A stretch of DNA of 64,000 nucleotides, taken from the NCBI GenBank assembly GCA_016191345.1, contig JACPOU010000008.1:1-64000 (forward strand). Direction: 5' to 3'. This DNA comes from Chloroflexota bacterium (lineage in GTDB: Bacteria; Chloroflexota; Limnocylindria; Limnocylindrales; CSP1-4). Of the stretch, positions 4,656 through 49,639 are shown one piece after another. A program made the position numbers and the translations under genes. A model generated the notes under the pieces. That model was not told the origin of the DNA. It ran no database searches and was given only the letters and a program-made list of their open reading frames with translations. How positions within the stretch are numbered: the stretch's first letter is position 1; each line of letters begins with the position of its first letter.

Positions 4656-4675
4656 GACAAGGTCTCCTTCGCGTG

Positions 4676-5035
4676 TCAGCCGCGCGCCGGCTGGTCCGGA
4701 TCGAGGGGGGCGGGGCGCTGGAGGGATGCCAGGAGGGCATCCAGCTGGTCGTAGCGGGCATCCCAGAACGCCTGGTAGCGGGCGAGCCACTCGGTGGCCT
4801 CGCGCAGGGGCTCGGCCTCGAGGTGGCTGAGCCGGGCCGTGGCCCGGCGGGTGCGGGAGATGAGGCCGGCCCGCTCCAGGACCTTGAGATGGCGCGAGAT
4901 CGCGGGCTGGGAGACGCGGAACGGGGCCGTGAGCTCCATGACCGATCGATCGCCCTCGGCGAGGCTCGCGAGGATGGCGCGCCGGGTCGGATCGGCGAGG
5001 GCGGCGAAGACGGTAGAGAGCGCGTCAGGCATCAT
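4676..5035 (-). CDS. ArsR-family transcriptional repressor
   Basis: A 119-aa winged-helix protein: ALADPTRRAILASLAEGD is the ArsR entry helix pair and VSQPAISRHLKVLERAGLI is the recognition helix and wing. No metal-binding CxC is seen in the recognition helix, so it belongs to the non-metal group normally linked to AHSA1 genes. Two in-frame ATGs (5035 and 5032) are possible starts. A 16-bp inverted repeat lies immediately upstream, which suggests autoregulation of the three-gene operon. Confidence 0.88.
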   Translation of the reverse strand: MMPDALSTVFAALADPTRRAILASLAEGDRSVMELTAPFRVSQPAISRHLKVLERAGLISRTRRATARLSHLEAEPLREATEWLARYQAFWDARYDQLDALLASLQRPAPLDPDQPARG

Positions 5036-8035: not shown

Positions 8036-8053
8036 CCCGGTCTCCGGCGGGAG

Positions 8054-8659: not shown

Positions 8660-8740
8660 GGTCGGCTCCTTGGGACGGACGTCCATTCTGGCCCAGCCGG
8701 GCCGCTGACGGGGAGCGGCGCCCGGCCCGATGATGGGCAC

Positions 8741-9304
8741 GTGGACGGTGACAGCACCCGATCGCGGCTTCGCGAGCTCCGGACCGCGGACCTCACGCCC
8801 GGCGAGCTGGCGGCGATCCGCGCCCTCATGGACGAGGCCTTCGCGGCGGACGAGCACGGCGGGTTTTCGGATGCGGACTGGGATCATGCGCTCGGCGGGC
8901 TGCACGTCGTCCTCGACATCGATGGCGAGATCATCAGCCACGCGGCCGTGGTCGAGCGCGAGCTCCACGTCGGCGGGCTGCCACTTCGAGCGGGCTACGT
9001 GGAGGCGGTGGCGACGCGACCGGGCCACGAGCGACGGGGCTACGGCTCGGCCGTCGTGGAGCGTGTCAATGCCCTCATCGCTGCGACCTGCGAGCTCGGC
9101 GCACTCGGGACCGGCCGGCACGTCTTCTACCGGCGGCTGGGCTGGGAGACGTGGCGGGGACGCGCGTTCCTCCGAACCGACGACGGCCCGGTCCGGACCC
9201 CGGACGACGAGGGCGACATCCTCGTGCTGCGCACGCCGGCCTCGCCGCCGTTCGACCTCACCGAGGACCTCAGCTGCGAGTGGCGCCCGGGCGACCCCTG
9301 GTGA
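8741..9304 (+). CDS. AAC(2')-type aminoglycoside N-acetyltransferase homologue
   Basis: A 187-aa GNAT protein that follows the AAC(2')-I pattern closely: DWDHALGGLHVVL, then ISHAAVVERELHVGG, AGYVEAVATRPGHERRGYGS (the acetyl-CoA loop R-G-x-G), a YRRLGWETWRG strand, and the diagnostic C-terminus RTPDDEGDILVL with CEWRPGDPW at the very end. The usual length is about 181-195 aa. In-frame GTG 8741 is the chosen start. It would transfer acetyl from acetyl-CoA to the 2'-amino group of some aminoglycosides; in chromosomal settings the native substrate may be a cell-wall sugar. Resistance is not shown by sequence alone. Confidence 0.8.
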   Translation: MDGDSTRSRLRELRTADLTPGELAAIRALMDEAFAADEHGGFSDADWDHALGGLHVVLDIDGEIISHAAVVERELHVGGLPLRAGYVEAVATRPGHERRGYGSAVVERVNALIAATCELGALGTGRHVFYRRLGWETWRGRAFLRTDDGPVRTPDDEGDILVLRTPASPPFDLTEDLSCEWRPGDPW

Positions 9305-9443
9305 CGTCGCGCGGCGAACCTCGGCCGGGCCCGACCGCCGAGCGTCGGCCGGGCCCGGCCGCCGAGCCCGCCGCGGGCATCGTGCCCGCGCCCCTCCCGG
9401 CCGGGGTAGGCTTCGTGGCCACGCAGAACCGATGAGGAGCGTC

Positions 9444-10616
9444 ATGGCCGCGGACCGGATCGACATGCTGCAGGCGAGCCTGCCGTTCTACCAATGGTAC
9501 GGAGCGTCGCCGCACAGCCGTCGCGCCGGCGAGCCGGGGGTCGTGGACCTCCTCTTCGGCAATCCGCATGACATGCCGATCCCGGCCTACGTCGAGGCGC
9601 TCCGCCGCCACGCCGAGCCGCAGAACTCCTCCTGGTACGCCTACATGCTGGACCACCCGGCCGCGACCGAGGTCGTGGCCCGCGACCTCACCGCCCACAC
9701 CGGCCTGCCCTGGGACCGCGACGACGTGGCGATGACGACCGGCGGCTGGGGCGCCATCGCCACCGCGATCCGGATGCTCACCGACCCCGGGGACGAGGTC
9801 ATCTACTACGACCCGCCGTGGTTCTTCTACGACATCCTCGTTCGCGGCGCGGAGGCCGTGCCGGTCGTGCTGACACTGCAGGCGCCCAGGTTCTCGCCGG
9901 ACCCGGACCAGCTCGCGGCCGCGATCACCCCCCGGACCCGGGCCGTGATCCTCAACACGCCCCACAACCCGAGCGGGCGCGTCCTCGATGACTCGGAGTT
10001 GGCGGCGGTCGCCGAGGTCCTCAGCGACGCGTCGGCCCGCCACGGGCGTCCGATCCACCTCCTGAGCGACGAGGCCTACCGCCTGATCGTGATGGACGGG
10101 CGGCGTTCGGCGAGCCCAGCCGAGCACTACGAGCACACGCTGGTCCTCTATTCCTACGGCAAGCAGCTCCTGGCGCCCGGCCAGCGCATCGGGTACCTCG
10201 CGATCTCGCCGCGGATCGGCCTCGCGGAGCGGCAGGCGCTGCGCCAGGCCGCGACGGTGACGCGGTTCGTGAGCAGCTGGGGCTTCCCGAACAACGTCCT
10301 CCAGCGGGCCCTGCCGGACATCGCCCACCTCTGCATCGACATGGGCGCGATCCAGCGTCGCCGGGACCACCTCGTGCCCGTCCTCGAGGAGCACGGCTAC
10401 GAGCCCACCATGCCCGAGGGCACGTTCTACGTCATGGCTCGCAGCCCGGACCCGGACGACGAGGCATTCGTGGCCCGGCTCGCGGCGCAGGACCTCTACG
10501 TCCTGCCCGGCAGCACCGTCAACATGCCCGGCTGGTTCCGGATCTCGCTGACGGGCAGCGACGCCATGGTGGAGGAGGCGGCGCGGCGCGTTCCTGGGCT
10601 CCGGGCGAGCCGGTAG
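9444..10616 (+). CDS. PLP-dependent class I/II aminotransferase
   Basis: A 390-aa fold-type I enzyme. The substrate loop NPHDMPIPAY, the NTPHNPSGRVLDD motif (Asn contacting PLP), LLSDEAYRLIV (Asp) and SYGKQLLAPGQRIGYL (Schiff-base Lys) are in canonical order, and the C-terminal FRISLTGSD gives the carboxylate-binding Arg. I prefer ATG 9444 (GAGGAG just upstream) to ATG 9432. The substrate amino acid is not predictable. Confidence 0.85.
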   Translation: MAADRIDMLQASLPFYQWYGASPHSRRAGEPGVVDLLFGNPHDMPIPAYVEALRRHAEPQNSSWYAYMLDHPAATEVVARDLTAHTGLPWDRDDVAMTTGGWGAIATAIRMLTDPGDEVIYYDPPWFFYDILVRGAEAVPVVLTLQAPRFSPDPDQLAAAITPRTRAVILNTPHNPSGRVLDDSELAAVAEVLSDASARHGRPIHLLSDEAYRLIVMDGRRSASPAEHYEHTLVLYSYGKQLLAPGQRIGYLAISPRIGLAERQALRQAATVTRFVSSWGFPNNVLQRALPDIAHLCIDMGAIQRRRDHLVPVLEEHGYEPTMPEGTFYVMARSPDPDDEAFVARLAAQDLYVLPGSTVNMPGWFRISLTGSDAMVEEAARRVPGLRASR

Positions 10617-10657
10617 CGGCGGCGCGGCGGGGACGCCCGTGGCAACTGGGGCCGCGC

Positions 10658-11239
10658 TCAGATCCGGGCGAGGAACGCGAGCACTCGCTCCGTGAGGAGC
10701 GCAGTCGCCGCCGGGTCGAAGGACGGGAGCGAGCTGTCCGAGAAGTAGTGCTGGTCGCCGGGGTAGAGGAAGAGCTCCGCGTCCGGCGCCGTCGCCACGA
10801 TCTCGCGGGCGGCATCGATGTCGCCCTCGCCGACGAAGATCGGATCGTGGTCCATGCCGTGGATCTGGACCGGCACGTCCTGCGGCCACGGCCCGAAGGC
10901 CCAGTCGCCGCTGACGGGGATCGCCGAGTAGAAGAGGAGGGCGCCCTTCGCCCCGGGCCGGGTCTGGGCGAGCTGTTGAGCGATCGACTCGCCGAAGGAC
11001 ATGCCGGCGTAGACGAGCTCGTTCCGGTAGGCGTCGGCGAGCTGCACGCCACGAGCCCGCAGCTCGTCGAAACCCTGGGCCCGGATGTGGGCCATGCCCG
11101 CCTCGATCGAGTCGAACGTCTGGCCGTCGAACAGGTCCGGGGTGTGGACCTCGTGACCGGCGTCGCGAAGCACGTCGGCGAAGGCGACGACGCCCGCTGT
11201 GAGGCCCTGTGCGTGGTGGAAGAGCAGCACCTCGGCCAT
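10658..11239 (-). CDS. dienelactone hydrolase family protein (Ser variant)
   Basis: A 193-aa small alpha/beta hydrolase: LLFHHAQGLTAGVVAFADVL at the N-terminus, a nucleophile elbow YAGMSFGESIA, then DHDPIFVGEGD and a terminal GDQHYFSD His. Classical dienelactone hydrolases carry Cys in G-x-C-x-G; here the residue is Ser, as in many family members of unknown substrate. The start at 11239 has GGAGG six bases upstream. Confidence 0.82.
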   Translation of the reverse strand: MAEVLLFHHAQGLTAGVVAFADVLRDAGHEVHTPDLFDGQTFDSIEAGMAHIRAQGFDELRARGVQLADAYRNELVYAGMSFGESIAQQLAQTRPGAKGALLFYSAIPVSGDWAFGPWPQDVPVQIHGMDHDPIFVGEGDIDAAREIVATAPDAELFLYPGDQHYFSDSSLPSFDPAATALLTERVLAFLARI

Positions 11240-38271: not shown

Positions 38272-39183
38272 TCAGCGGCCGACGACCGCTCGCACGCCCA
38301 CGCCGACGGCCTCGGGGACGTCGAGCGCCGCATGCGCTTCCGCGTACGTCTCCGTGTCGCCGTGGTAATCCGATCCGCCGGTCGGCTGGAGCCGTGCCTC
38401 CGCGGCGACGGCGGCGACGGCGGCGACCGTCTCCGCGTCGAACGTCCGGTAGTAGACCTCGAGCCCGCCCAGCCCGGCCGCCTTGAGCTCACGGATGAGG
38501 TCGAGGCGCTCAGGGGCCTCCCCGAAGTGGGCCAGCGACGCGAGCCCGCCCGCCGCCCGGATCGCCCGGATCGCCTCGACCGGGCCGAGGCCCTCGCGCG
38601 GCACGTAGCCGGGCCGCCCACGGGACAGGTACAGCGAGAACGCCTCCTCGACGCTCGACACGTAGCCCTTCGCGATCATCGCCCGGGCAACGCGCGGCCG
38701 GCCAAGGGCGTCGTCCTCACCGGTCACGGGAAGCGCCTCGAGGGCGTCGTCGACGGGTCGGCCGATATCCGCGAGGCGCCGGACCATCTGCTCGAAGCGC
38801 ACGCGGCGCCGCGTCCGCTGCAGTGCAAGCGTCGCCTCGAGGCCCTCGTCGTCCGGGTCCACCCCGAGCCCGAGGACGTGGACCTCGCTCTCGCGGAGGT
38901 CGGGCCGATCCGTGACCGCGTTCAGCTCGATCCCGGGCAGCAGCTCCAGGCCCGGTGGTATCGCGTGCGCGGCGAGGACCTCCCGCACGCCGGCGAGCGT
39001 GTCGTGGTCCGTGATCGCGAGGAGCCGGACGCCGGCGGTCGCGGCCGCGGCGACGAGCTCGCCCGGCTCGAGCAGGCCGTCGGAGCGAGCGGTATGCGTA
39101 TGGAGATCGATCGTCGACGGCGCCGCGGGGACCACCGGGTCGCCGGCCGCGACATGGCGCCGCCTGGCCGCGGCCACGCTCAA
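38272..39183 (-). CDS. PHP-domain phosphoesterase
   Basis: A 303-aa protein of the YciV-like/RNase AM group: IDLHTHTARSDG (metal site), LLAITDHDTLAG, LLPGIELNA, AHFGEA and PTGGSDYHG at the C-terminus complete the PHP metal cluster. These hydrolyse 3',5'-bisphosphates or act as 5'-3' exonucleases. It starts at TTG 39183, overlapping the ymdB-like stop, so the two form a unit. Confidence 0.88.
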   Translation of the reverse strand: MSVAAARRRHVAAGDPVVPAAPSTIDLHTHTARSDGLLEPGELVAAAATAGVRLLAITDHDTLAGVREVLAAHAIPPGLELLPGIELNAVTDRPDLRESEVHVLGLGVDPDDEGLEATLALQRTRRRVRFEQMVRRLADIGRPVDDALEALPVTGEDDALGRPRVARAMIAKGYVSSVEEAFSLYLSRGRPGYVPREGLGPVEAIRAIRAAGGLASLAHFGEAPERLDLIRELKAAGLGGLEVYYRTFDAETVAAVAAVAAEARLQPTGGSDYHGDTETYAEAHAALDVPEAVGVGVRAVVGR

Positions 39184-39959
39184 CCCTCGAAGACCCGCGT
39201 CACCCGCTCGATCGCGAGCGCGCGGCCGGTCGCGGGGTCGATGTCAATCTGCGTCGCGTTGAGGATGACCGGCCCGCTGCCGACCTCGAAGCGGGTGGGC
39301 AGCGCGTTGATGAACCGCGGCAGAACCGTCCTGGGATCGAAGCCGATGACGCTCCAGATGGGTCCGGTCATGCCGAGGTCCGTCTGGTAGGCCGTGCCGC
39401 CGGGCAGGATCCGCTCGTCGCCGGTCACGACGTGGGTGTGCGTGCCGACGACCGCCGACACCCGCCCGTCGAGGTGGAGCCCCAGCGCGTTCTTTTCCGA
39501 GGTGACCTCGCAATGGAAGTCCGCGAGACGGATCGGCGGCAGCGCTTCCGAGGATTCGTCGAGGAGCCGGTCCATGTCGGTGAAGGGGTTCTCGATCGGC
39601 TGCATGTAGGTCCGGCCCTGAAGGTTGACGACCGCGAGGTCCGTCCCGTCGAGGGCCTGGTAGACACCCCAGCCACGCCCGGGGACGTCGTGCGTGCCGT
39701 AGTTGAGGGGCCGGAGGATCCGGTCGTTCGCGTCGAGGACCGGGTAGATCTCGCGCTTGTCCCAGATGTGGTTGCCGGAGGTGATGACGTCGACCCCATG
39801 GGCAAAGAGCGCATCGGCGATTGACGCGGTGAGCCCCATCCCGCCGGCGAGGTTCTCTCCGTTGGCAGTCACGAAGTCGATGCCGCGTTCCTCGCGAAGC
39901 CCGGGCAGGATCGCCTCGAGCGCGAGGCGCCCGGGCTTGCCGATGACGTCGCCGATCAT
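39180..39959 (-). CDS. ymdB: YmdB-type metallophosphoesterase
   Basis: A 259-aa calcineurin-like phosphodiesterase of the TIGR00282/YmdB family: IGDVIGKPGR, TANGENLAGGMGLT, ITSGNHIWDKREIY, LADFHCEVTSEKNALG and VVGTHTHVVTGDERIL carry the binuclear metal ligands. In-frame codons before ATG 39959 encode RVL, the expected start of the first strand, but no start codon precedes them, so ATG 39959 is the only choice. It is normally next to rny; here the 7.9-kb element lies between them. Confidence 0.92.
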   Translation of the reverse strand: MIGDVIGKPGRLALEAILPGLREERGIDFVTANGENLAGGMGLTASIADALFAHGVDVITSGNHIWDKREIYPVLDANDRILRPLNYGTHDVPGRGWGVYQALDGTDLAVVNLQGRTYMQPIENPFTDMDRLLDESSEALPPIRLADFHCEVTSEKNALGLHLDGRVSAVVGTHTHVVTGDERILPGGTAYQTDLGMTGPIWSVIGFDPRTVLPRFINALPTRFEVGSGPVILNATQIDIDPATGRALAIERVTRVFEG

Positions 39960-40104
39960 CAGGACCCGGCAGGCGCCCGGCGGCCGCGGCGCGTTGCCGT
40001 TCGGCGGGTTGCCGAGGCGGACCCGACCCGCGAGCTGGTCGCCGGTCGTGCCGCCGGGGCCGCCTACTTCGCGTACCCCGCGCCCGTGCGTGACGGACGC
40101 CTAT

Positions 40105-40124
40105 TGCAGCATCTATGCAGCATC
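40105..40124. repeat. left end direct repeats (candidate attL)
   Basis: TGCAGCATC occurs at 40105-40113 and 40116-40124, two bases apart. The same doublet with a 3-base spacer is at the right end. A possible integrase promoter overlaps it: TTGCAG at 40104-40109 and an extended -10 TGATACACT at 40126-40134, with a long 19-base spacer. Confidence 0.55.
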
Positions 40125-40209
40125 GTGATACACTCCGGCACAGCAGCGCGACGATCCGGCCATTGGCCGACCGGACCGGCTCGCGCTCGACTCGGAAAGG
40201 ACCCGAGCC

Positions 40210-41304
40210 ATGCAGGAGACTACCCGACCACGTCGGACGCCGGGTGCCGGCAGCCTCTACGAAACCGCCACGGGCATGTGGCGAGGCGCCTACGTCGTCG
40301 AAGATCCCACGACGCGAGCGCGCGTGCGCCGCTACGTATCCGGACACTCGCGGGCGGAGGCTGGCCGCCGACTCCGCGAAGCGATCGCGACATCTGATCA
40401 GGACGCGGCGCTCGCCGCCTCTCCTACTCTCGGATGGTGGGCGACGCGATGGCTGGACACGCTAGCAGCATCCGACCGTGTCAGGCCGGCAACGCTTCGA
40501 AGCTACCGGAAAGTCATCGTGCAGCACGTGGTGCCGCAGCTCGGATCCTGGCCGCTTGCGGATCTCCGTCCGGGCGACGTGGAGCGATGGTGGGCCGGTC
40601 TCCTCGAGCGCGGTCTCAAGCCGTCTACCGTGGCTCTATCGCGCCGCATCCTGGCCGCATGCCTTGCTGACGCCGAGCGGGACGGCCGTGCCCCGCGCAA
40701 CGCTGCTCGGCTAGCCCATGCGCCACGGGTCGAAGGCACGACACGGCGCCGGACGTTGACCGCCGCCGAGGCCCGGAACCTGCTAGACCTTGCCCGGGAC
40801 GATTTGAGCGCCGGCCTCCTCGTCACCCTGGCACTTGGCACCGGCGCCCGTGTCGGCGAGCTCCTCGCACTCACCTGGGACGATGTCGATCTCAGCGCCG
40901 GGACCGTGAGCATCCACGGGAGCCGTTCGCGAGCCGGCGTCGGGCCGACCAAGAGCCGCCGCGGTGTGCGGACCGTCAAGCTCCCTCCGTTCGCGCTCGA
41001 GGCACTACGGGCCGAGGCACGCAGGAATGGGCCTGTTATCGCGTTGCCGGATGGGCGCCCGATGACACCCGAACGTGCCGGCGAGCGATGGCGAGCATTT
41101 CGAGATGTGGCCGAGCTCGAGGAGCTCCGCTTCCATGACTTGCGCGGGACGTTTGCGACGCTCGCCTTGGCGCGCGGCGTCCCTGCGAAGGCCCTTGCCG
41201 ACGTTCTCGGGCATGATCCAGCCGTCTTGCTCCGCACCTATGCCGGTCCGATCGAGAACGCCCGCGACACGATCGCCGATGCGATCGGCGAGGCCCTCCG
41301 ATGA
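40210..41304 (+). CDS. int: tyrosine recombinase (integrase)
   Basis: A 364-aa integrase. Residues 1-60 form an AP2-like arm-binding region (GSLYETATGMWRGAYVVEDP), 70-165 the SAM-like core-binding domain and 180-364 the catalytic domain. Catalytic residues are visible: Arg214 (GTGARVGELLAL), Lys248 region (GPTKSRRG), His309-x-x-Arg312 (FHDLRGTFATLAL), His335 (DVLGHDPA) and Tyr344 (RTYAGPIENA). AAAGGA lies eight bases before ATG 40210. It sits 86 bases from the left end repeat. Confidence 0.95.
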   Translation: MQETTRPRRTPGAGSLYETATGMWRGAYVVEDPTTRARVRRYVSGHSRAEAGRRLREAIATSDQDAALAASPTLGWWATRWLDTLAASDRVRPATLRSYRKVIVQHVVPQLGSWPLADLRPGDVERWWAGLLERGLKPSTVALSRRILAACLADAERDGRAPRNAARLAHAPRVEGTTRRRTLTAAEARNLLDLARDDLSAGLLVTLALGTGARVGELLALTWDDVDLSAGTVSIHGSRSRAGVGPTKSRRGVRTVKLPPFALEALRAEARRNGPVIALPDGRPMTPERAGERWRAFRDVAELEELRFHDLRGTFATLALARGVPAKALADVLGHDPAVLLRTYAGPIENARDTIADAIGEALR

Positions 41305-41669
41305 CGAGAGAGCTGCCCGGCCCCGGAAAGCCAACCTTCGACGGCGACCCGATCGCCGTGGACCCGGGCCTCATTTCGGCTCTCGCACCCCTACCACATC
41401 TCGCGTACTTGATCGGCCAACCCGTCGCAGAGCACGCAGCCCCTCGACCGCTGGCGCCCGCAGCGGGCCGCCCCAACATACGCCGCGCGGCTGGGCGCCC
41501 GCCCTGGGAGCGCGATGAGTTCCTACGACACTGGAATGCCGCCGTTGCAGCTACTCCGGAGCCAAAGACGCACGCCGCCATCGCCGAGCACTTCATCAGG
41601 CAGGACGGGACCGAGGGGATTGAGCCCGGTTCGCTTCGAAAGCTCCGGCGACGCTTCCTCGATAAATAA
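41301..41669 (+). CDS. small protein overlapping the integrase
   Basis: A 122-aa protein starting in the ATGA overlap with int. The N-terminal two thirds is Pro/Ala-rich and probably flexible; the C-terminal part (THAAIAEHFIRQDGTEGIEP, then SLRKLRRRFLDK) looks like a small helical DNA-binding domain. No named family recognised. Confidence 0.65.
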   Translation: MTRELPGPGKPTFDGDPIAVDPGLISALAPLPHLAYLIGQPVAEHAAPRPLAPAAGRPNIRRAAGRPPWERDEFLRHWNAAVAATPEPKTHAAIAEHFIRQDGTEGIEPGSLRKLRRRFLDK

Positions 41670-41741
41670 CCGGAAACCGGCGCATTTGGGACCGGTTTCG
41701 AACCTATAAGGGCGCGCAAGCCACGCCCGACCATCTAACGC

Positions 41742-42002
41742 ATGGAAGGACGCCATGCGACACCTGAGCTCCGAGCACTAGCCGCACTCGACGACCTCCG
41801 CGATGCCCTGGGCGCGTTCTTTGCCGCGCGTCGCGAGCCCGTCGAGCCGGCGGCCCTATTGACGATCACCGACGCCGCCCGCCGGCTCGGTGTGTCCCGA
41901 TCCACCGCGACCCGATGGGCCGACGATGGCCGTCTCCGGACGATTGGCGTCCGGAACGGTCGACGCGTACCCCGATCCGAGGTTGAGCGTCTCGCCTCGT
42001 GA
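41742..42002 (+). CDS. Xis-like helix-turn-helix protein
   Basis: An 86-aa protein. Residues 38-86 (ALLTITDAARRLGVSRSTAT, then RWADDGRLRTIGVRNGRRVP) are a MerR/excisionase-type winged helix. Together with the integrase it forms the expected recombination-directionality pair. Its stop overlaps a GTG start of the next small frame. Confidence 0.82.
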   Translation: MEGRHATPELRALAALDDLRDALGAFFAARREPVEPAALLTITDAARRLGVSRSTATRWADDGRLRTIGVRNGRRVPRSEVERLAS

Positions 42003-42193
42003 TTGTCTCGAGCCGTCACCTGCCCCAATGGGAACGCCGGAGCCCGCGAGCGATCGCGCTTATGACGCTCCGTGACGCCGTGCTCTCCGAGCGGTCTGTG
42101 TGGCCGACTGGAGGCGAGATTCATACCGCCCTGGGACGCGCCGAGCGTGCCATCGCGACCGCCGCCCGACTGGCCGACCACCCGAAGACGTAG
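41999..42193 (+). CDS. tiny protein, function unknown
   Basis: A 64-aa frame starting at GTG 41999 in a GTGA overlap with the Xis-like gene; an internal ATG at 42062 gives 43 aa. The C-terminal part (RDAVLSERSVWPTGGEIHTA, then ERAIATAARLADHP) is a plausible helical protein. The overlap supports it, but it is short. Confidence 0.45.
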   Translation: MIVSSRHLPQWERRSPRAIALMTLRDAVLSERSVWPTGGEIHTALGRAERAIATAARLADHPKT

Positions 42194-42238
42194 TGACGCC
42201 CGGCGGGGGCGAATCCGCCGAGCGTCTGAGGATCCAGC

Positions 42239-42472
42239 ATGATCAGCTCCACCGATCCCCAGCCCCAGACTACAGCCACCGTGCAAGCGCCCCACGACGG
42301 CCGCAGCCGATGCTGGCGGCCCGATTGCCGCGCTGCATGGGGTTCGTACCGGACCGTGACGTGGCAGCCCTCCTGGGCCATCGCCCGGTGCCACGGCGCC
42401 CGTTACCGCCGTCACGACCTCGACCTCGCCGCGGAGCTCGCCGCCCATGCCGATGTGGTGGTGGCCGCGTGA
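42239..42472 (+). CDS. small Cys-containing protein
   Basis: A 77-aa protein with CWRPDCRAAW and ARCHGARYRRHDLDLA, i.e. C-x4-C and a Cys-His pair that might bind zinc. Its stop overlaps the ATPase gene's GTG start (GTGA), which suggests co-translation. Confidence 0.55.
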   Translation: MISSTDPQPQTTATVQAPHDGRSRCWRPDCRAAWGSYRTVTWQPSWAIARCHGARYRRHDLDLAAELAAHADVVVAA

Positions 42473-43368
42473 GCCTGCGAGCTCTGTCCTGGACCGAGAT
42501 CCAAGCCGAGCCGGCGGCACCACCGCCCACCCTCCGGGCCGGCATCCCGAAGGTCGGCCTCACCGTGGTCGCGGGCTCACCGAAGGTCGGCAAGACCCTC
42601 TGGGCCGGGCAGACGGCCCTCGAGACGAGCGCGAAGACGTTGCTCGTCATCGAGGAAGGCACCATGGCCGGGATCGGTTACCGCCTCCGGATGCAGGCGG
42701 CCGCTCTTGGCATCGTCGACCCGCCGATCGTCGTCATGCACAGGCAGCGCGTCCGCCTAGACACGCCCGCCTCTGTCAAGCAGCTCCGAGACTACGTGGA
42801 GATCGCGAAGGGCCGCGGGCTCGGCCTCATCGTCCTCGACCCGCTCAACCGCCTCCACGGTGTCGACGAGAACCGCCCGACCGAGATGACCCGCGTCATG
42901 GACGCGATGGCCGGCCTCGCCTATGACTACTCGCTGGCTGTTCTGGCCATCCACCACCTTGCCAAGCCGTCCGCCGAGCGGCGGGGCGACGTCTGGGACC
43001 GTTTCCGGGGCGCAAGCTCGATCCGGTCCGGTACCGACGCGAACCTTGTCCTGGACGGGACCGGCGACCGGATCCACCTCGTTGGCGAGTTCCGCGATGC
43101 CGAGCCGCTCACCGAATGGCTCGAGCTTGACCGGGATGCCCTGATCTTCCGCCCGGCCGACTCTCCGGACGGTCCGGCCACGAAGGTCGACGTGGGCCGT
43201 CTCCGAGCCTTCGTCGAGGACCGCCGCATGGTCGTCGCCCGGCAGGTATGCGAGGAGTTCGGCGTGTCGAAGCACACCGCAATCAACGCCCTCCGCGGGC
43301 TCGGCTGCGACGAGTTCGCAGGCCTCCGAGGGGCGATCACCTTCACCCTCGGGGCGACCGTGCAATGA
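42469..43368 (+). CDS. RepA-like AAA_25-type ATPase
   Basis: A 299-aa protein. The RecA-fold core has Walker A GSPKVGKT (36-43), a LLVIEEG strand, Walker B GLIVLDPLNRLHGVDEN (119-135) and LAVLAIHHLAKPS with the sensor His. The region VWDRFRGASSIRSGTDANLV matches the C-terminal end of RepA/DnaB-like replication ATPases. Residues 245-299 form a winged helix (VARQVCEEFGVSKHTAINAL). The neighbouring repeat array suggests it acts at an origin. It could instead be an RSF1010 RepA-like helicase or a regulator. Confidence 0.8.
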   Translation: MSLRALSWTEIQAEPAAPPPTLRAGIPKVGLTVVAGSPKVGKTLWAGQTALETSAKTLLVIEEGTMAGIGYRLRMQAAALGIVDPPIVVMHRQRVRLDTPASVKQLRDYVEIAKGRGLGLIVLDPLNRLHGVDENRPTEMTRVMDAMAGLAYDYSLAVLAIHHLAKPSAERRGDVWDRFRGASSIRSGTDANLVLDGTGDRIHLVGEFRDAEPLTEWLELDRDALIFRPADSPDGPATKVDVGRLRAFVEDRRMVVARQVCEEFGVSKHTAINALRGLGCDEFAGLRGAITFTLGATVQ

Positions 43369-43468
43369 CCGTGCAGTGGTGTGTAGTGCACGGTCAACCG
43401 ACTGTGCAATCACCTCCCCCTTTAGGGGGGGTATTGCACGGTGCACGGTCGTGCTCATTGACCGTGCA
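43356..43468. repeat. iteron-like array, candidate replication origin
   Basis: GACCGTGCA occurs at 43356, 43367 and 43460, its reverse complement TGCACGGTC at 43387 and 43442, with near copies at 43401 (ACTGTGCA) and 43435 (TGCACGGTG). In the middle, CCCCC-TTTA-GGGGG (43416-43429) forms a hairpin. The array starts inside the last codons of the RepA-like gene and ends before the next firm gene, the usual place for a rep-linked origin. Confidence 0.7.
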
Positions 43469-43502
43469 GTCGACCCGATGTCCTGGCGAGGAGAGCTCGT
43501 GA
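43365..43502 (+). CDS. doubtful 45-aa frame through the iteron array
   Basis: ATG 43365 overlaps the ATPase stop and the frame ends in GTGA overlapping the next start, so the spacing mimics a real gene. However, it runs wholly through the repeats (TVQWCVVHGQPTVQS), so it may be only a consequence of them. Confidence 0.25.
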   Translation: MTVQWCVVHGQPTVQSPPPLGGVLHGARSCSLTVQSTRCPGEESS

Positions 43503-43759
43503 ACCCGACGATCGTCCGGGTCTCCCGCGAGGATCGCTTCCTCTGGGACGACGTCGACGTGACGATCCCCGACTACCCGGACCGGATCGCCCTCCGCGGT
43601 CTCAAGCTCTTCCAGCAGCCTGAAGGCTGGGTCATCAAGAGCCAGCAGGTCCGCGGCGCCTACACCTGGGCGCCGGCCGTCGTGTTCGTCGGTCCGCTCC
43701 AGCGCCGTGTCATCGCGGCGATCCTCGCCGAGGCCCGCTCGCAAGGGCTCGTCGAGTGA
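43499..43759 (+). CDS. small element protein, unknown function
   Basis: An 86-aa protein starting at GTG 43499. VRVSREDRFLWDDVDVTIPD and GLKLFQQPEGWVIKSQQVRG suggest a compact alpha/beta domain; the last 20 residues form a helix (RRVIAAILAEARSQGLVE). Its stop overlaps the next GTG. No family recognised. Confidence 0.65.
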   Translation: MNPTIVRVSREDRFLWDDVDVTIPDYPDRIALRGLKLFQQPEGWVIKSQQVRGAYTWAPAVVFVGPLQRRVIAAILAEARSQGLVE

Positions 43760-43935
43760 CGCGGCCACTCGAGATCGTCGGGCCGCGCCGCAAGCCTGGA
43801 CCGCGCCGACCTTGCGCCCTATGCGATCGGCCGACCCCGCGCCGACAGGCCGTCGTCATCCGCGACGAGTGGTACTGCCGGCGGCACTGGTCGGACGACC
43901 GCGAGATTCCCCGTTCATTGCAGCCCAGTAGCTAG
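43756..43935 (+). CDS. 59-aa Cys/His zinc-type protein
   Basis: It starts at GTG 43756 in a GTGA overlap. The sequence has CALCDRPTPRRQ and WYCRRHWSDD, i.e. C-x2-C followed 19 residues later by C-x2-x-H, a plausible zinc-binding fold, with a very basic N-terminus (RRKPGPRRP). Small zinc proteins of this sort are common in phage and plasmid modules; role unknown. Confidence 0.55.
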   Translation: MTRPLEIVGPRRKPGPRRPCALCDRPTPRRQAVVIRDEWYCRRHWSDDREIPRSLQPSS

Positions 43936-43947
43936 GAGCACCGCCCT

Positions 43948-44265
43948 ATGAACGTCACGATCGTGCCAGTCCGCGTCACCGACGAGACGGGCCAGCCCGT
44001 CAGTGAAGACACCGAGATCCGAATGACCGCTGGCGAGCTCAACGCGGCGCTCACCGAGCACACGCGTCTCATCGTCGAATCAGCCGCACACGCGGTTGCA
44101 TCAGCTGTTGCCCGAAGCGCCCCTACGACCGACGCTCTCGTGGCGGCGATCGACCGGCAGACCGCCGTAATCGCCGCACCAAAGATCCGGACGGCCGTCC
44201 GTGACGAGCACGGCATGATCATCTCAACGCGCGAGGTCATCGCCCCCGACCGGCCCGCCCAGTGA
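43948..44265 (+). CDS. 105-aa element protein with helical middle
   Basis: AGGAG at 43934-43938 lies nine bases before ATG 43948. A beta-type start (NVTIVPVRVTDETGQPVSED) is followed by a long Ala-rich amphipathic helix (LIVESAAHAVASAVARSAPT) and a strand (KIRTAVRDEHGMIISTREVI). It lacks cysteines and membrane segments. A virion-associated or scaffold role is possible but nothing specific supports it. Confidence 0.6.
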   Translation: MNVTIVPVRVTDETGQPVSEDTEIRMTAGELNAALTEHTRLIVESAAHAVASAVARSAPTTDALVAAIDRQTAVIAAPKIRTAVRDEHGMIISTREVIAPDRPAQ

Positions 44266-44363
44266 GGGGGGGTATGCCGAAACTGGGAGGCATCCCGTCC
44301 CTTCTGTACCCGCCACCACGCTCGCGGTGTGTACGGGTCTCAGACTCTGGAGGAAAACAGATC

Positions 44364-44612
44364 ATGACGACCACGGATCCGATCGGCCTGGACATTCGCC
44401 GGATGGTTGCCGCGCTTGTGCGCTCCGGGCTCGAACACCCGGACGTTGAACGTTTCCGCCTCGACGCCTGGCGCCTCGTCTTCGCGAACGGCTCCTACGT
44501 CGCCTTGTGGTCGGACGGACGGCCGATCGCGGTGTTCGACGAAGACACCGTCGCGCTGGCCGTCGGCCTCCTCCGAGCCCGCCGCGAGGCCCGCCGCGCC
44601 CAGCTCAACTAG
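44364..44612 (+). CDS. 82-aa element protein
   Basis: GGAGGA (44349-44354) nine bases upstream makes ATG 44364 a strong start. The protein is acidic to neutral with FRLDAWRLVFANGSYVALWS and a C-terminal Arg-rich helix (LRARREARRAQLN). Function unknown. It is followed at once by the promoter-like element in front of the capsid gene. Confidence 0.65.
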   Translation: MTTTDPIGLDIRRMVAALVRSGLEHPDVERFRLDAWRLVFANGSYVALWSDGRPIAVFDEDTVALAVGLLRARREARRAQLN

Positions 44613-44822
44613 ATGCTTGCGAACTTGCGCAAATGGGGTATACAATCGGACGGTCCGGCCAGAGGCCGGAGGATCGTGGGCAGCGCGCCCGACCGTCCAG
44701 AGGACGTGTCCAGGAGCAGCGCCCGTCGAGCCGAGACGACGCCAGAGGCGGAGTCGGAGCACGGCGATGGTCGGCCCGACCTCCGCCCCGGCGCGCACTG
44801 CGCCTCTCTGGAGATGACGTGA
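44613..44822 (+). CDS. possible 69-aa leader peptide or small protein before the capsid gene
   Basis: ATG 44613 directly follows the previous stop and the frame ends in a GTGA overlap with the capsid start, which is suggestive of coupling. Its middle (AETTPEAESEHGDGRPDLRP) is low-complexity and coincides with the structured leader, and the promoter at 44617-44646 lies inside it. I regard it as equally likely to be non-coding leader. Confidence 0.3.
   Translation: MLANLRKWGIQSDGPARGRRIVGSAPDRPEDVSRSSARRAETTPEAESEHGDGRPDLRPGAHCASLEMT
44617..44646 (+). promoter_or_regulatory. promoter upstream of the capsid gene
   Basis: A -35-like TTGCGA (44617-44622) is followed after 18 bases by TACAAT (44641-44646), five of six matches to the -10 consensus. 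Transcription would start near 44653 and give a roughly 165-base leader before the capsid start. The leader can fold: CCGGCC-AGA-GGCCGG near 44657-44671 inside GGACGGTC/GACCGTCC. Confidence 0.55.
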
Positions 44823-46135
44823 ACTTCACGACCGAACAGGTGAGCGCGCTCAACCGCGCCCTTGCCGCCATCCGCACCTGGACCCGCCTCGAGGAGATCC
44901 GTGGCGAGCACTCGTACTTGACGGCCCCGCAGGCCGAGGACCACTCGACCGCGGTGCGCTCTTGGAATGAGGCCGTCGCCGCCCTCCCGGAACTTCGCCT
45001 GCCCGCTCTCGATCACGCCTGGACCGCCGATGAGCTCGCCCGCGCCGTGCGAACGCTCGAAGGCTTCCAGAAGATGGCCGAGGGCGCCGCGTTCGGCGCT
45101 GAGGTCCGGAACCGCATCGGCGCGGTCTCCGATCCGGCGAGCGGCAATCCGCCCGGTAGGCCGACCGCGACGGACCAGATCCGCGACATGCTCGCTTCTC
45201 GCGAGCGGCAGGCGGACTTTGTCTTCCCCGAGTCAGAGACAATCCGCAGCCTCCCCTGGCTGGGCGGCGAGGACGATGCCTCCCGGTCGATTTCCAACTT
45301 TGCGAACGGCACGTCGCTGTACGTCAGCGACTTTGCCGCCCGTGTCGCCGCCTACGCCCGGACGATCAGCCCGTACATCGGCCTCGGGACCGTCGTCAAC
45401 AGCGACAACGGGCGACCGCTCGTCGTGCCGACCCTCACTGGTGATGTCACGGTCTACACCCCTGGCGAAGGTACCGCGATCACCCCGGCCGATCCGACCC
45501 TCGGCAGTGTCACGGTCACGCCCGCCGGATTCAAGGCCCTGACATACATCAACCGCGAAGCGTTCGACGACGCCGAGATCAACCTGACGGACGTCCTCGC
45601 CCGGTCGCACGCACGCGCCATCGGTCTGGCGTTCGGCTCCGCGTTCACGACGACGGTCCTGACCGGCATCACAAACGGCGGCACCGCCGTCCCCGCCGGC
45701 GGCGCCGGCACCGGCACACCGACGTTCATCGGCTACGAGGACCTCATCGACCTCGAGTACGGCCGCGCCGCGCCGTACCGCGAATCGGGCGTCTGGGTCA
45801 TGTCCAACGGCATGATCAAGAAGGCCCGCAAGTACCGCGATTCCACGGGGGCGTACCTCTGGCAGCCGAACCTCGCGGCCGGCCAGCCGCAGACCTTCGA
45901 CGGGCACGCGGTCTACGAGGATCCCTACCTCGCGGCCCCCGCGTCGGCGACCAAGTCAGTCCTGTTTGGGGACCTTGCAGCCGCGCTCGTGCTCAAGGCG
46001 ACCCCGATCCGGGTCGAGCTCTCGAGCGATTTCCTGTTCGACAAGGACCAGATCGCGATCAAGAGCGTCCAGCGGATCTCCGGAGCCGTCCAGGACGCGG
46101 CAGGGGCCGCGTACATGGTCAGCTTCAACACGTAG
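44819..46135 (+). CDS. HK97-fold phage major capsid protein
   Basis: A 438-aa protein starting at GTG 44819 (GGAG six bases upstream). Residues 1-125 are helical, like an HK97 delta/scaffolding region; 140-438 is the capsid fold: SPYIGLGTVVNSDNGRPLVV, EGTAITPADPTLGSVTVTPA (the E-loop/axial strand pattern), INREAFDDAEINLTDVLARS, then WVMSNGMIKKARKYRDSTGA and YLWQPNLAAGQPQTFDGHAV, FGDLAAALVLKATPIRVELS. These are standard for the TIGR01554-type capsid family. Encapsulins share the fold but are shorter and lack this N-terminal part. No maturation protease gene accompanies it. Confidence 0.93.
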   Translation: MNFTTEQVSALNRALAAIRTWTRLEEIRGEHSYLTAPQAEDHSTAVRSWNEAVAALPELRLPALDHAWTADELARAVRTLEGFQKMAEGAAFGAEVRNRIGAVSDPASGNPPGRPTATDQIRDMLASRERQADFVFPESETIRSLPWLGGEDDASRSISNFANGTSLYVSDFAARVAAYARTISPYIGLGTVVNSDNGRPLVVPTLTGDVTVYTPGEGTAITPADPTLGSVTVTPAGFKALTYINREAFDDAEINLTDVLARSHARAIGLAFGSAFTTTVLTGITNGGTAVPAGGAGTGTPTFIGYEDLIDLEYGRAAPYRESGVWVMSNGMIKKARKYRDSTGAYLWQPNLAAGQPQTFDGHAVYEDPYLAAPASATKSVLFGDLAAALVLKATPIRVELSSDFLFDKDQIAIKSVQRISGAVQDAAGAAYMVSFNT

Positions 46136-46149
46136 CCGACTCTTCCTCA

Positions 46150-46178
46150 GCCCGCCGGGTTCCTCCCGCCCGGCGGGC
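46150..46178 (+). terminator. hairpin after the capsid gene
   Basis: GCCCGCCGGG (46150-46159) and CCCGGCGGGC (46169-46178) form a perfect 10-bp stem 14 bases past the capsid stop, followed only by TTCC. Confidence 0.6.
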
Positions 46179-46230
46179 TTCCAACCGACCTCTCCGCCGG
46201 CCCCCTCCAAGGGCCGGTGCGAAACTAGAG

Positions 46231-46268
46231 ACGGCCCGTCGAGCCCTAACACTCGGCGGGCCGTTTTC
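46231..46268 (+). terminator. Rho-independent terminator
   Basis: ACGGCCCGTCGAG and CTCGGCGGGCCGT pair (one G-T) around an 8-base loop and are followed by TTTTCTGT. The loop includes CCCTAACA, related to the repeated CCCTAAC/GTTAGGG motif in this spacer. Confidence 0.75.
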
Positions 46269-46319
46269 TGTGTCTTGACGACGGCCGCCAAGGGCGCGCA
46301 CCATCCGCCGCAGCGACGT

Positions 46320-46362
46320 GTTAGGGCCGGCGCACTTTTCGTGCCCCGGTGTCGGCCCTAAC
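46320..46362 (+). promoter_or_regulatory. structured element with GTTAGGG arms before the secreted-protein gene
   Basis: GTTAGGGCCG (46320-46329) pairs perfectly with CGGCCCTAAC (46353-46362), enclosing a smaller GCAC-ttttc-GTGC hairpin. GTTAGGG recurs at 46419 next to the ribosome site (GGGAGG) of the downstream gene. The element could be an operator, attenuator or RNA switch; a second terminator is also possible. Confidence 0.45.
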
Positions 46363-46436
46363 CCGATGCCGGGGCGTCTGTCGTCCCTGGGGGATGAGGA
46401 GTCGGGGCGCGTGCAGCCTGTTAGGGAGGCTTGCCA

Positions 46437-46931
46437 ATGTTCCATCGTCGTCTGGCCACGCTCGGAGTAGCGTCGGCCCTCATGTTGTCGGTCGCACCGT
46501 CCGCTCTCGCGGCGACGGTCACCGACTCCTTTACCGTCACGGCGTCCGTCGCCGTGACCGGGATCCCCGCCTCGATCAGCTATGGCGCACTCGATCCGGG
46601 CACGACTTCGGGCGTGCAGATCATCGACGCGAACGTCAGCAGCAACTCGGCATGGTCAATGAGGATCACCGGCTCCGACTTCACCGGACCGGCCGCCCTC
46701 GGCAAGGGCGCGCGCGAAGTCAAGCTCTCGTCGACGAACGGGGCGGCCGTTCAGGTAGCGCCCTTCGCGTTCGTCGCGTTCGATGACCCGAAATACACGG
46801 ACGCTATCGCCGATGCCACCGGCTCGGCCGGCAGCTTCCTCGTGCGATCGGAGCTCCGGATCGTGGTCCCGGTGGCTCAGGCGCCCGGCTCCTACTCGGG
46901 CACGATCACGTACACGTTCTCGGCCCCGTAA
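46437..46931 (+). CDS. secreted beta-rich protein
   Basis: A 164-aa protein with a clear signal peptide (FHRRLATLGVASALMLSVAP, cleavage after SALA near residue 25). The mature part is Thr/Ser/Val-rich strands: TVTDSFTVTASVAVTGIPAS, GALDPGTTSGVQIIDANVSS and a terminal GSYSGTITYTFSAP, resembling WxL- or pilin-like beta-sandwich surface proteins. It lies downstream of the capsid gene in the element and is followed five bases later by a membrane-anchored partner. Confidence 0.8.
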   Translation: MFHRRLATLGVASALMLSVAPSALAATVTDSFTVTASVAVTGIPASISYGALDPGTTSGVQIIDANVSSNSAWSMRITGSDFTGPAALGKGAREVKLSSTNGAAVQVAPFAFVAFDDPKYTDAIADATGSAGSFLVRSELRIVVPVAQAPGSYSGTITYTFSAP

Positions 46932-46936
46932 ACCCG

Positions 46937-47401
46937 ATGGTCCGCCTCATCAGGGCGGCCGTCGTGCTCGGCATCCTCGCGGCGGCTTCCCCCGTCGCCG
47001 CGAGCGATAGCCCGACACTCGGCGGCCGACTCTCACCGTTTCCGCTCGTCTGGGAGCGAGACGCCCCCGTCGTCAACGTGACCAACCTATCCACGATCCC
47101 CGTGCGCGTCACCGTCGAGGCCGATGGCGGCTGGCGCGTCGACTCGGCATCCTTCACGCTCGCAGTCAACGAACGCCGCAGTGTGTCAATCACTGCGGCG
47201 GGCTCGGCGGACGGTCGCATCCGGGCCCGCCTGGACCCGGCGGATGCCATCCCGGGCGTTGAGGCTGTCGGGCTCGTCCTCGAGACGCGGGCCCGTCACG
47301 CGACATTCGTCGAGCTCTATCCGGCGGCGCCGGCTGCCCTCCTCGCCGCCGTGACGATCCTCCTCCTAGCCCTCGTGCGCCGAAAGGTCGTCAGACGATG
47401 A
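46937..47401 (+). CDS. membrane-anchored extracellular protein
   Basis: A 154-aa protein with a signal peptide (IRAAVVLGILAAASPVAAS), an extracellular beta-domain (RDAPVVNVTNLSTIPVRVTV, then VNERRSVSITAAG) and a C-terminal transmembrane helix with a basic stop (PAALLAAVTILLLALVRRKV). This is type I topology. Its position suggests it anchors or assembles the preceding secreted protein, as DUF916-type proteins do for WxL proteins; that is an analogy. Confidence 0.78.
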   Translation: MVRLIRAAVVLGILAAASPVAASDSPTLGGRLSPFPLVWERDAPVVNVTNLSTIPVRVTVEADGGWRVDSASFTLAVNERRSVSITAAGSADGRIRARLDPADAIPGVEAVGLVLETRARHATFVELYPAAPAALLAAVTILLLALVRRKVVRR

Positions 47402-47577
47402 CGCGGCACCCCACCTATCCACCACGCCTAACGGCCGCCGAGCTCCGGCAGCCGATCCCGGCCACGTGTGCCGCCTGTGGCGGCCCTGGTGTCATCCTCG
47501 CGGACCCCGCCCCGCGTGGACGCTTTGTCTGTTTCCGGCGGGACCTGTACGGCACTTGTGGGAGGCCAGCAGCATGA
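47398..47577 (+). CDS. 59-aa zinc-ribbon-like protein
   Basis: It starts in an ATGA overlap with the anchored-protein gene. TCAACGGPGVILADP and FVCFRRDLYGTCGRP give C-x2-C and C-x8-C, a probable four-Cys zinc ribbon. Its stop overlaps the next start (ATGA). Confidence 0.6.
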   Translation: MTRHPTYPPRLTAAELRQPIPATCAACGGPGVILADPAPRGRFVCFRRDLYGTCGRPAA

Positions 47578-47912
47578 CCACGGCAACCGCAATGCAGCTC
47601 GCCTGGAAAGGCACGGTCAACGACACGCCGCGCGAGAAGATCCGGCTCGTCTGGGCCGAGCTCATCGCTCGGCACCCGAGCTCCGATGCGCTCGAGTCGG
47701 ACCTGTTCAGCGACTCGTTCTTTCAGGCGATCGACGCACGCACTGACGACGCCTTCCGGGCCGGCTTCGCGACTGCCTCGATCCTCGAAGACACGGGCTA
47801 TCCCGAAACCGACGATGACAGGGAGGCCCTGCTCCGGGCGATCGTGGAGGCCGCTCACGTTCCCCAGGTGCCCGGGCACATCAAAGGCGACGAGTTCGTC
47901 CGGGACGAATAA
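47574..47912 (+). CDS. 112-aa acidic helical element protein
   Basis: The last gene of the element. It is strongly acidic and helical (DALESDLFSDSFFQAIDART, DDAFRAGFATASILEDTGYP). No family recognised. A perfect 9-bp hairpin follows it. Acidic small proteins of this type are often inhibitors or DNA mimics in phages, but no direct evidence is visible. Confidence 0.65.
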   Translation: MTTATAMQLAWKGTVNDTPREKIRLVWAELIARHPSSDALESDLFSDSFFQAIDARTDDAFRAGFATASILEDTGYPETDDDREALLRAIVEAAHVPQVPGHIKGDEFVRDE

Positions 47913-47943
47913 GCCGCAGCTGAGCGGCTCGCGCCACACTCAC

Positions 47944-47975
47944 CGGCCCCGGCCCGCCTCGTGCGACCGGGGCCG
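47944..47975 (+). terminator. terminal hairpin of the element
   Basis: CGGCCCCGG (47944-47952) and CCGGGGCCG (47967-47975) form a perfect 9-bp stem after the last element gene, followed by CTCTATG. Confidence 0.55.
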
Positions 47976-48016
47976 CTCTATGCCGTTATCGAAACCGACG
48001 CGACCCGCCCTGGTCG

Positions 48017-48037
48017 TGCAGCATCGCGTGCAGCATC
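48017..48037. repeat. right end direct repeats (candidate attR)
   Basis: TGCAGCATC occurs at 48017-48025 and 48029-48037, three bases apart, matching the left-end doublet. The end is 81 bases from the rny stop, so integration did not break rny. The exact core and crossover point cannot be set from one copy. Confidence 0.55.
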
Positions 48038-48118
48038 CATGGAGTCGGATGGTGGACGACTAGAGAGCAATCCCCGCACGGATGCTACGCGGTGCGCCAT
48101 CGTGCGACGCAATGCAGA

Positions 48119-49639
48119 TCACTTCGCGTACTCCACGGCGCGCGTCTCGCGGATGACCGTGACCTTGATCTGGCCCGGGTAGGTCAGCTCCTCCTCGATC
48201 TTCTTCACGATGTCGCGGGCGAGTCGCGTTGCGGTGAGGTCGTCGATCTCCTCGGGCCGGACGAGGATCCGCACCTCGCGCCCGGCCTGGACCGCAAACG
48301 ACCGCTCGACGCCGCCGAACGATTCGGCGATGGCCTGGAGGTCCTCGAGGCGCTTGACGTAGGTGTCCATCGTCTCGCCGCGGGCGCCGGGCCGTGATGC
48401 CGAGATGGCATCGGCCACCTGGACGATCGGCGCCTCGAGGCAGGCGTACTCGACCTCCTGGTGGTGGGCGGCAATGCAGTTCACGACCTTGAACGGCAGC
48501 TCCGCCTTGGCGGCGATGGCCGCGCCGATCGCGGCGTGCGGGCCCTCCACCTCGTGGTCCACGGCCTTGCCGATGTCGTGGAGGAGGCCGCCCATCTTGG
48601 CGGCCATGATGTCCGCCCCGATCTCGCCGGCGATGACCGACGCGAGGGCGCTCGTCTCGATCGAGTGGACGAGGACGTTCTGGCCGTAGCTCGTCCGGAA
48701 CTTGAGCCGGCCCAGGAGCTTCACGACATCCGAGGGCAGGCCCGGGACGCCGGCATCGTAGGCGGCCTGCTCGCCCGCCTGGCGGATGACCAGCTCGACC
48801 TCGGCGCGCGCCTTGTTGACGACCTCCTCGATCCGGCCGGGATGGATCCGCCCGTCGCCCATGAGCTTCGTCAGGGCAATGCGGGCGACTTCGCGTCGAA
48901 CGGGATCGAAGCCCGACAGGACGACCGTCTCGGGGGTGTCGTCGATGATCAGGTCGATACCGGTCGCCTGCTCGAGGGCCCGGATGTTGCGGCCCTCGCG
49001 ACCGATGATCCGGCCCTTCATCTCGTCGCTGGGCAGGTGGACGACGGTGACCGTGTGCTCGGCGGTGTGGTCCGCGGCGACGCGCTGCATGGCGGTCAGG
49101 ACGATGTCGCGGGCCTTCTCGGTCGCCTCGTCGCGGGCTCGCCGCTCGATCGACCGGGCGAGCTTCACCGCGTCGTGCTCGGCCTCCTCACGGACCGCCT
49201 CGAGGATGACAGCCTTGGCATCGTCCGCCGACATGCCGCTGACCCGTTCGAGCGCGGCGACGCGCTCAGCCTGCAGACGGACGAGGTCCTCGCGCTGGCG
49301 CTCCAGCTCCATGTCCCGCTCGAGAAGCTTCCGGTCGCGCTGCTCGAGCATGTCGCTGCGCTGGTCCAGCTGCTCATCTCGCGCGTGGAGGCGGCGCTCG
49401 AGGGCGCTCAGCTCGTTGCGGCGGCTGCGAGCCTCGTCCTCCGCCTCGCGCTGGAGGCGGATCTTCTCCTCCTTGGCCTCGAGGATGAGGTCCTTCTGCT
49501 GGGTGCGGGCATCGGCGACGATGCGGGCGGCCTTCTCGTGGGCGATCTTGACCGCCTGGTTCGCAAACCGGCTTCGGGCGACGAATCCGAGTGCGACACC
49601 ACCGGCCAGCGCCACGAGGGCGACGGCAAGGTAGTCCAT
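48119..49639 (-). CDS. rny: ribonuclease Y
   Basis: A 506-aa membrane-tethered endoribonuclease. An N-terminal transmembrane helix ([20 protein letters not shown]) precedes a long coiled coil (residues 30-160, Glu/Arg-rich), a KH domain ([20 protein letters not shown]) and an HD domain ([20 protein letters not shown], then [25 protein letters not shown]). GGAGGAAG lies just before ATG 49639. It initiates mRNA decay and is normally followed by ymdB; here an inserted element intervenes. Confidence 0.95.

Follow-up and report, generated by a model that had tools for sequence, protein, structure and literature searches.

The window analysed here is a 64-kb stretch of DNA from a Chloroflexota genome (G000; 2.77 Mb, 92% complete), in which an intact, site-specific element of 8,055 bp (40066-48131) is integrated at the 3' end of rny. 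The element forms a rightward block of 16 frames between the host genes ymdB (39180-39959, minus strand) and rny (48119-49639, minus strand), and one of its frames encodes a major capsid protein (MCP) of the HK97 type.

Ends, genes and integrity of the element

Empty sites were found by joining both flanks, searching the genus and aligning the congeners with both junctions. In four congeners (G098, G099, G101 and G103) rny and ymdB are adjacent, with no element between them, and the alignment places attB at the 3' end of rny. Two copies of the att core ACTTCGCGTAC, separated by 8,055 bp, lie at 40066 and 48121. The left junction and the empty sites share CTACTTCGCG, with the stop TAG on the rny strand; at the right junction we found TCACTTCGCG, and the rny stop is TGA. 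The end of rny was therefore exchanged exactly by the insertion, TAG giving way to TGA. A previous reading of the same DNA (the original prediction) had put the ends at 40105 and 48037; these positions belong instead to the GCAGCATC doublets that lie just inside both ends and are probable arm sites of the integrase. The principal features are, in order:

40066-40076, no strand: attL core ACTTCGCGTAC, from the rny 3' end (alignment with the four empty sites; host stop context CTACTTCGCG kept)
40104-40124, plus strand: left doublet of GCAGCATC (matches at 40104 and 40115), probable integrase arm sites, a putative function
40210-41304, plus strand: tyrosine integrase, 364 amino acids (PF00589, 1e-19; phrog_1, 2e-58; 77% identical to the integrase at the same site in genome G081)
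41742-42002, plus strand: excisionase-type winged helix-turn-helix (HTH) protein (HTH_17), 86 amino acids (TIGR01764 above cut-off; PF12728, 4e-12; 66% identical in the sister element of G081)
42469-43368, plus strand: RepA-type AAA_25 replication ATPase, 299 amino acids (PF13481, 1e-16; 39-40% identical to the ATPase of the lone-capsid element L047)
43355-43468, no strand: iteron-like array, 114 bp, five copies of YGACCGTGCA in both orientations, putative origin
44617-44646, plus strand: promoter-like site TTGCGA-18-TACAAT preceding the capsid gene (sigma-70 consensus match only)
44819-46135, plus strand: full-length HK97-type MCP, 438 amino acids (PF05065, 5e-41; TIGR01554, 9e-47; AlphaFold2 model, PDB matches and tree)
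46228-46267, plus strand: intrinsic terminator at the end of the capsid unit (stem of 16 pairs and a T tail)
48016-48037, plus strand: right doublet of GTGCAGCATC (exact copies at 48016 and 48028), probable integrase arm sites
48121-48131, no strand: attR core ACTTCGCGTAC; the element supplies the new rny end, TGA for TAG (alignment with the empty sites)

The integrase, Xis-like gene, RepA-like ATPase and full-length MCP of the original prediction were confirmed by Pfam, NCBIfam and PHROGs matches, and its rightward frames are all open. The iteron-like array that it had noted is real but small; it adjoins the ATPase gene and holds all three exact TGACCGTGCA copies of the window. No useful close relatives of the ATPase were found in IMG/VR or among plasmids. 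As to the block having been described as unbroken, it does run rightward with every frame open, but it is not a single unit: the capsid gene has its own promoter-like site, the sole sigma-70-like match within 8.4 kb, and a strong terminator of its own; behind this lies a separate cassette of four genes, two of which encode exported proteins. An Rfam ar14 match at this terminator was far under the gathering score and was taken as chance.

The reported absence of terminase, portal, protease, head-tail and lysis genes also held, since in profile searches with Pfam, PHROGs and NCBIfam no frame corresponded to the large terminase subunit (TerL) or to a portal, protease, connector, tail or lysis gene. 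Among the small frames, the only match of this kind was a weak one between the HTH protein and phrog_57, "terminase small subunit" (7.5e-5), which the excisionase models outscored; this protein could conceivably have a Nu1-like second role. In the whole host genome there were zero portal or TerL matches.

The rny site of G081 is occupied by a sister element (L250, G081:C80, 3617-14380, right end not reached), which has the same rny-end junction as the window and an equivalent arm-site doublet (GCAGCACC) beside its integrase. It encodes a DUF3631 protein, FtsK, a TerL (phrog_9, 7.5e-42) and a TerS-like protein (PF25673, 2e-5, just below the cut-off; PHROGs labels the family minor tail protein), and the G081 genome gave no PF05065 (MCP) or PF04860 (portal) match. 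The sequence is suggestive, although not conclusive because the right end was not reached, of a terminase module held at this site in place of the MCP. No complete phage, of which the window element could have been a deleted copy, was seen at the rny site of the relatives: the four congeners are empty and G081 holds a different element.

The capsid protein and its recurrence in Chloroflexota

The window MCP is 45-53% identical to the MCPs of the complete siphophages L002, L003, L015 and L236. These phages carry terminase, portal, protease, glycosyltransferase and tail genes where the contig extends (that of L015 is cut within the portal gene), and they share with the element the MCP alone; blastn comparisons with L002, L003, L015 and L048 recovered the capsid gene and, besides it, just a single 25-bp match. 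An AlphaFold2 model, built with 28 relatives, shows the HK97 core, with pLDDT of about 80-92 across most of residues 170-438, and a helical delta-like N-terminal region from residue 1 to about 133. The best PDB folds for this model were the capsids of the Rhodobacter gene transfer agent and of EcCI2, a capsid-forming phage-inducible chromosomal island (cf-PICI), followed by Mycofy1 and HK97, and the profile search of PDB sequences agreed with them.

A lone HK97 shell protein without packaging genes is also the gene layout of encapsulins, and the original prediction had allowed for capsid-like particles made for another purpose. However, a domesticated, encapsulin-like compartment on a mobile element is highly improbable here. 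An encapsulin is a shell without the delta domain and closest to other encapsulins; the window MCP keeps a delta-like N-terminal domain, its sequence and fold matches are capsids of phages, gene transfer agents and cf-PICIs (of the 30 sequence and 50 fold matches shown, none is an encapsulin), and in the MCP tree it is nested within a siphophage clade. Furthermore, there is no obvious cargo gene.

For a survey, we located every PF05065 match in the class (177 genomes) and, in the phylum (400 genomes), the stronger matches; their neighbourhoods were then fetched and scanned with models derived from the phages found. At least ten Chloroflexota elements other than that of the window have a lone MCP. 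It lies beside a recombinase in L047, L115, L117, L125, L126, L128, L129, L134, L147 and L158, of which L125 and L129 are near contig ends; in L116 the MCP neighbourhood is as in L115, but cut by the contig end. Three of these elements are bounded by exact att repeats at tRNA genes: L047 (tRNA-Asn, about 7.48 kb, 44-bp repeat), L128 (tRNA-Phe, 8.81 kb, 42-bp repeat) and L147 (tRNA-Trp, 9.30 kb, 44-bp repeat). With the window, the four MCP-only elements delimited in this way measure 7.5-9.3 kb. A kit of tyrosine integrase, HTH protein, AAA_25 ATPase and lone MCP is common to the independently bounded window element, L047 and L128, and L147 has the integrase, HTH and lone MCP; L115 and L117 are inserted in comM beside serine recombinases. 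We also scanned 83 proteins of 11 lone elements, setting aside MCPs, recombinases and the main replication proteins. The complete Pfam list, of 15 families, contained nothing structural and nothing for packaging or lysis, and the same holds for the 25 of 38 PHROGs families shown.

Two further integrative elements, L118 and L141, encode a tape measure protein in addition to the MCP; terminase, portal and protease were not found in either. L187, from IMG/VR, is the same sequence as L118, and L141 is an element of 8.84 kb bounded by 41-bp tRNA-Thr repeats. The regions that hold both genes are:

L118 (G048:C114), 1017-4786: MCP and tape measure protein
L187, 22-3791: MCP and tape measure protein
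L141 (G217:C3), 7481-10822: MCP and tape measure protein

The MCP tree (12 lone and 25 full-phage rows) requires five changes between the lone and the full state, at least four of which are forced by well-supported branches. The window MCP clusters with the full phages L002, L003 and L015 at 100/100, and a lone-only clade is formed at 100/94 by L115, L116, L117, L128 and L129 with L118, which L047 joins less surely. As some rows are long-branched, the tree is to be read as several captures and one radiation, not as an exact count. The dN/dS ratio was 0.49 for a pair of lone MCPs (L115/L116) versus 0.45 for a pair of phage MCPs.

These data bear on whether the element is the remnant of a deleted prophage, that is, a siphophage stripped down to integration, replication and one capsid gene. 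The kinship of its MCP with those of complete siphophages speaks for such an origin, as do comparable mycobacterial elements. phiMmcs_2 and phiBN42_1 (cf. phiRv1 and phiRv2) are likewise integrated, about 10 kb long, and combine an integrase, an excisionase or primase and a capsid gene, with portal and terminase lacking; they have been described as defective remnants (PMC3986857). The likeness is by description, and phiBN42_1, unlike the window element, has a prohead protease. Nevertheless, the broken or truncated genes and lost att sites of a decayed prophage are not seen in the window, where both att sites are intact and every frame is open; the site is empty in congeners, and the profile searches revealed no adjoining remnants of portal or protease. 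In addition, the integrase, HTH protein and ATPase are common to other lone-capsid elements rather than to phages, and the at least four independent origins, together with a diversified lone-only clade under phage-like constraint, are difficult to reconcile with simple deletion. We thus regard a remnant as improbable.

Known satellites and the proposed role of the capsid protein

Capsid piracy by means of a borrowed capsid gene (Ccm) is known from staphylococcal islands. In SaPIbov5, a Staphylococcus aureus pathogenicity island (SaPI), Ccm is a capsid homologue with a delta domain, whose gene was taken from a phage; it fills the pentamers of a T=4 head in which the helper protein fills the hexamers, which results in a mosaic small head, and it is found with delta removed, blocks the helper and forms no capsids alone (PMC8569155, PMC5052747). 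The statement of the original prediction that known satellites carry either more morphogenesis genes or none overlooked SaPIbov5, which has this single HK97-type homologue. Like SaPIbov5 and the cos-type SaPIs, the window element is integrative, brings integrase, excisionase and replication genes of its own, and bears one delta-bearing, HK97-fold capsid homologue of phage origin and no other head genes, portal, protease and large terminase being absent. The likeness is one of parts lists; the element belongs to another phylum and has a different integrase, att site and replication genes. There are other differences: the Chloroflexota elements are smaller, their capsid genes were captured repeatedly and independently, the delta domain of the window MCP is not shortened, and Ccm of SaPIbov5 occupies pentamers only and is unable to complement the helper capsid. 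No Ccm entry appeared among the PDB sequence hits shown for the window MCP. By analogy, the Chloroflexota elements could represent Ccm-like satellites of unusual breadth, with an unrelated integrase and attachment site, in another phylum.

The cf-PICIs also have their own HK97 capsid, integrase and replication genes and no tail genes, and the fold of the EcCI2 capsid (9gyi) matches that of the window MCP. However, they encode a protease, portal, connectors, HNH and both terminase subunits (PMC10690885). In our profile searches none of these (TerL and TerS with HNH, portal, prohead protease, head-tail connectors) was present in the window element, which, without portal, protease or terminase, falls outside the definition of a cf-PICI. 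Two circular sequences of about 10.4 kb from IMG/VR, L201 and L202, belong to the same wider MCP family and carry TerL, MCP, protease, portal, a tyrosine integrase and an AAA_25-type ATPase; no tail genes were seen in them, which makes them cf-PICI-like, and L201 has a 127-bp terminal repeat. Charybdis elements were discarded as a match, as they have no hallmark capsid. The literature searched yielded neither an account of capsid-only virion-encapsidated integrative mobilizable elements (VEIMEs) nor one of lone-capsid satellites in Chloroflexota, most subscription journals lying outside that search.

Because the parts list of the window element is that of SaPIbov5, we favour the redirection or replacement of a capsid, and the recurrence of similar elements across the phylum indicates that it probably parasitises phages, either by supplying the head that they build or by altering it. 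We consider it rather probable that the element is a phage satellite with a capsid subunit of its own, by which the head of a helper is redirected or replaced; a satellite that supplies its capsid and borrows portal and terminase, as originally predicted, fits all the evidence. In such a cycle, the tyrosine integrase and excisionase would insert the element into the 3' end of rny, and the RepA-type ATPase would probably replicate it from the iterons. The MCP with its delta domain would be its sole structural contribution to the particle. A helper siphophage, with a capsid probably like those of L002, L003 and L015, would supply portal, protease, terminase and tail, and the satellite MCP would either co-assemble with the helper's, as Ccm of SaPIbov5 does, or replace it. 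The outcome would be a small head suited to an 8-kb genome and a starved helper. As the window genome contains no portal or TerL, the helper would be an infecting phage. In the other lone-capsid genomes tested, PF04860 portals occur only in G063 and G227, on other contigs and within separate full prophages, and TerL was found elsewhere in G027 and G482.

Several points weigh against the satellite reading. No sign of particles, induction, transfer or a helper was seen, and the host genome lacks any prophage able to act as helper. No cos or pac site was identified in the element by blastn against the possible helpers L002, L003, L015 and L048. The lone MCPs retain delta-sized N-termini that are not systematically shortened, unlike that of Ccm; a shorter delta was rejected as a Ccm-like signature because it does not hold generally (median 122.5 against 113 residues, p = 0.45). 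Finally, a lone capsid protein might serve interference alone, with no transfer involved.

This last point leads to another explanation, an anti-phage interference island whose MCP poisons or decoys phage assembly in a dominant-negative manner, the element itself moving by its integrase plus ordinary transduction and not being packaged in MCP-containing particles. A host without helper prophage or portal would agree with it, and so would an MCP gene that forms its own promoter-terminator unit, like a single gene carried in; moreover, Ccm expressed alone blocks phi12 10^3-10^4-fold (PMC5052747). On the other hand, the element brings a replication ATPase and iterons of its own, the att-bounded elements all fall within a narrow size range that suggests packaging, small-head packaging accompanies interference in known cases, and the sister element carries a terminase. 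On balance we find an island devoted to interference unlikely.

A wider proposal, which we put forward only tentatively and regard as doubtful, is that Chloroflexota harbour widespread, repeatedly evolved minimal satellites whose only virion genes set the dimensions of the particle, the assembly machinery being left to the helper. The MCP would set head size, and the tape measure protein of L118/L187 and L141 would set tail length.

If the satellite reading is true, at least four captures and one diversified lineage in a distant phylum would make the borrowed capsid a solution of a general kind, found by satellites again and again, and would offer material for comparing how a single subunit resets the size of a head. 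Lone-capsid elements, having a phage hallmark gene but no phage, are easily taken for dead prophages in annotation. A practical marker of these elements is an HK97 MCP that has an integrase and an AAA_25 ATPase no more than 10 kb away and no portal; a size of 7.5-9.3 kb is a second one.

Remaining frames and minor loci

The other frames of the window element are listed below.

41301-41669, plus strand: 122-amino-acid protein, overlapping the integrase stop (no family in Pfam, PHROGs or NCBIfam)
41999-42193, plus strand: 64-amino-acid protein (open frame; no family in Pfam or PHROGs)
42239-42472, plus strand: 77-amino-acid protein (open frame; no family in Pfam or PHROGs)
43499-43759, plus strand: 86-amino-acid protein (open frame, coding-like)
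43756-43935, plus strand: Cys-rich 59-amino-acid protein (open frame; no significant family)
43948-44265, plus strand: 105-amino-acid protein (no significant family)
44364-44612, plus strand: 82-amino-acid protein, upstream of the capsid gene (coding-like)
46437-46931, plus strand: exported 164-amino-acid protein of the accessory cassette, with a signal peptide (predicted from sequence; no family)
46937-47401, plus strand: exported, membrane-anchored 154-amino-acid protein of the accessory cassette (signal peptide and C-terminal transmembrane segment in the sequence; no family)
47398-47577, plus strand: Cys-containing 59-amino-acid protein (open frame; no family)
47574-47912, plus strand: 112-amino-acid protein (coding-like; no family)

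Small proteins of 80-120 amino acids also precede the MCP in several lone elements. The exported pair (46437-47401) has almost no relatives among the 177 genomes of the class and possibly serves a surface or superinfection-exclusion function.

A family of HK97 capsids of about 295 amino acids (MALTLAEAAKLSND...) was found in L127, L130, L131, L132, L161, L162, L163 and L164. In L131 and L164 these genes lie with portal- and terminase-sized genes, whereas in L127, L132 and L163 the neighbour is a coiled-coil gene, the surroundings are host DNA and no recombinase was seen; the loci are possibly domesticated or gene-transfer-agent-like. We kept this family out of the lone class because the portal and terminase models appear to miss its phages.

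Two further observations concern single loci. Behind a tRNA-Pro in L051 (G022:C21, 9547-9774) lies a short piece, in frame, of the C-terminal end of an HK97 capsid, which is likely the scar of a lost prophage or element. L117 (G063:C34, 10920-13351) holds a DNA methyltransferase and an adjoining 476-amino-acid gene, with a NucS-like nuclease domain among the family matches; this pair is probably restriction-modification cargo.

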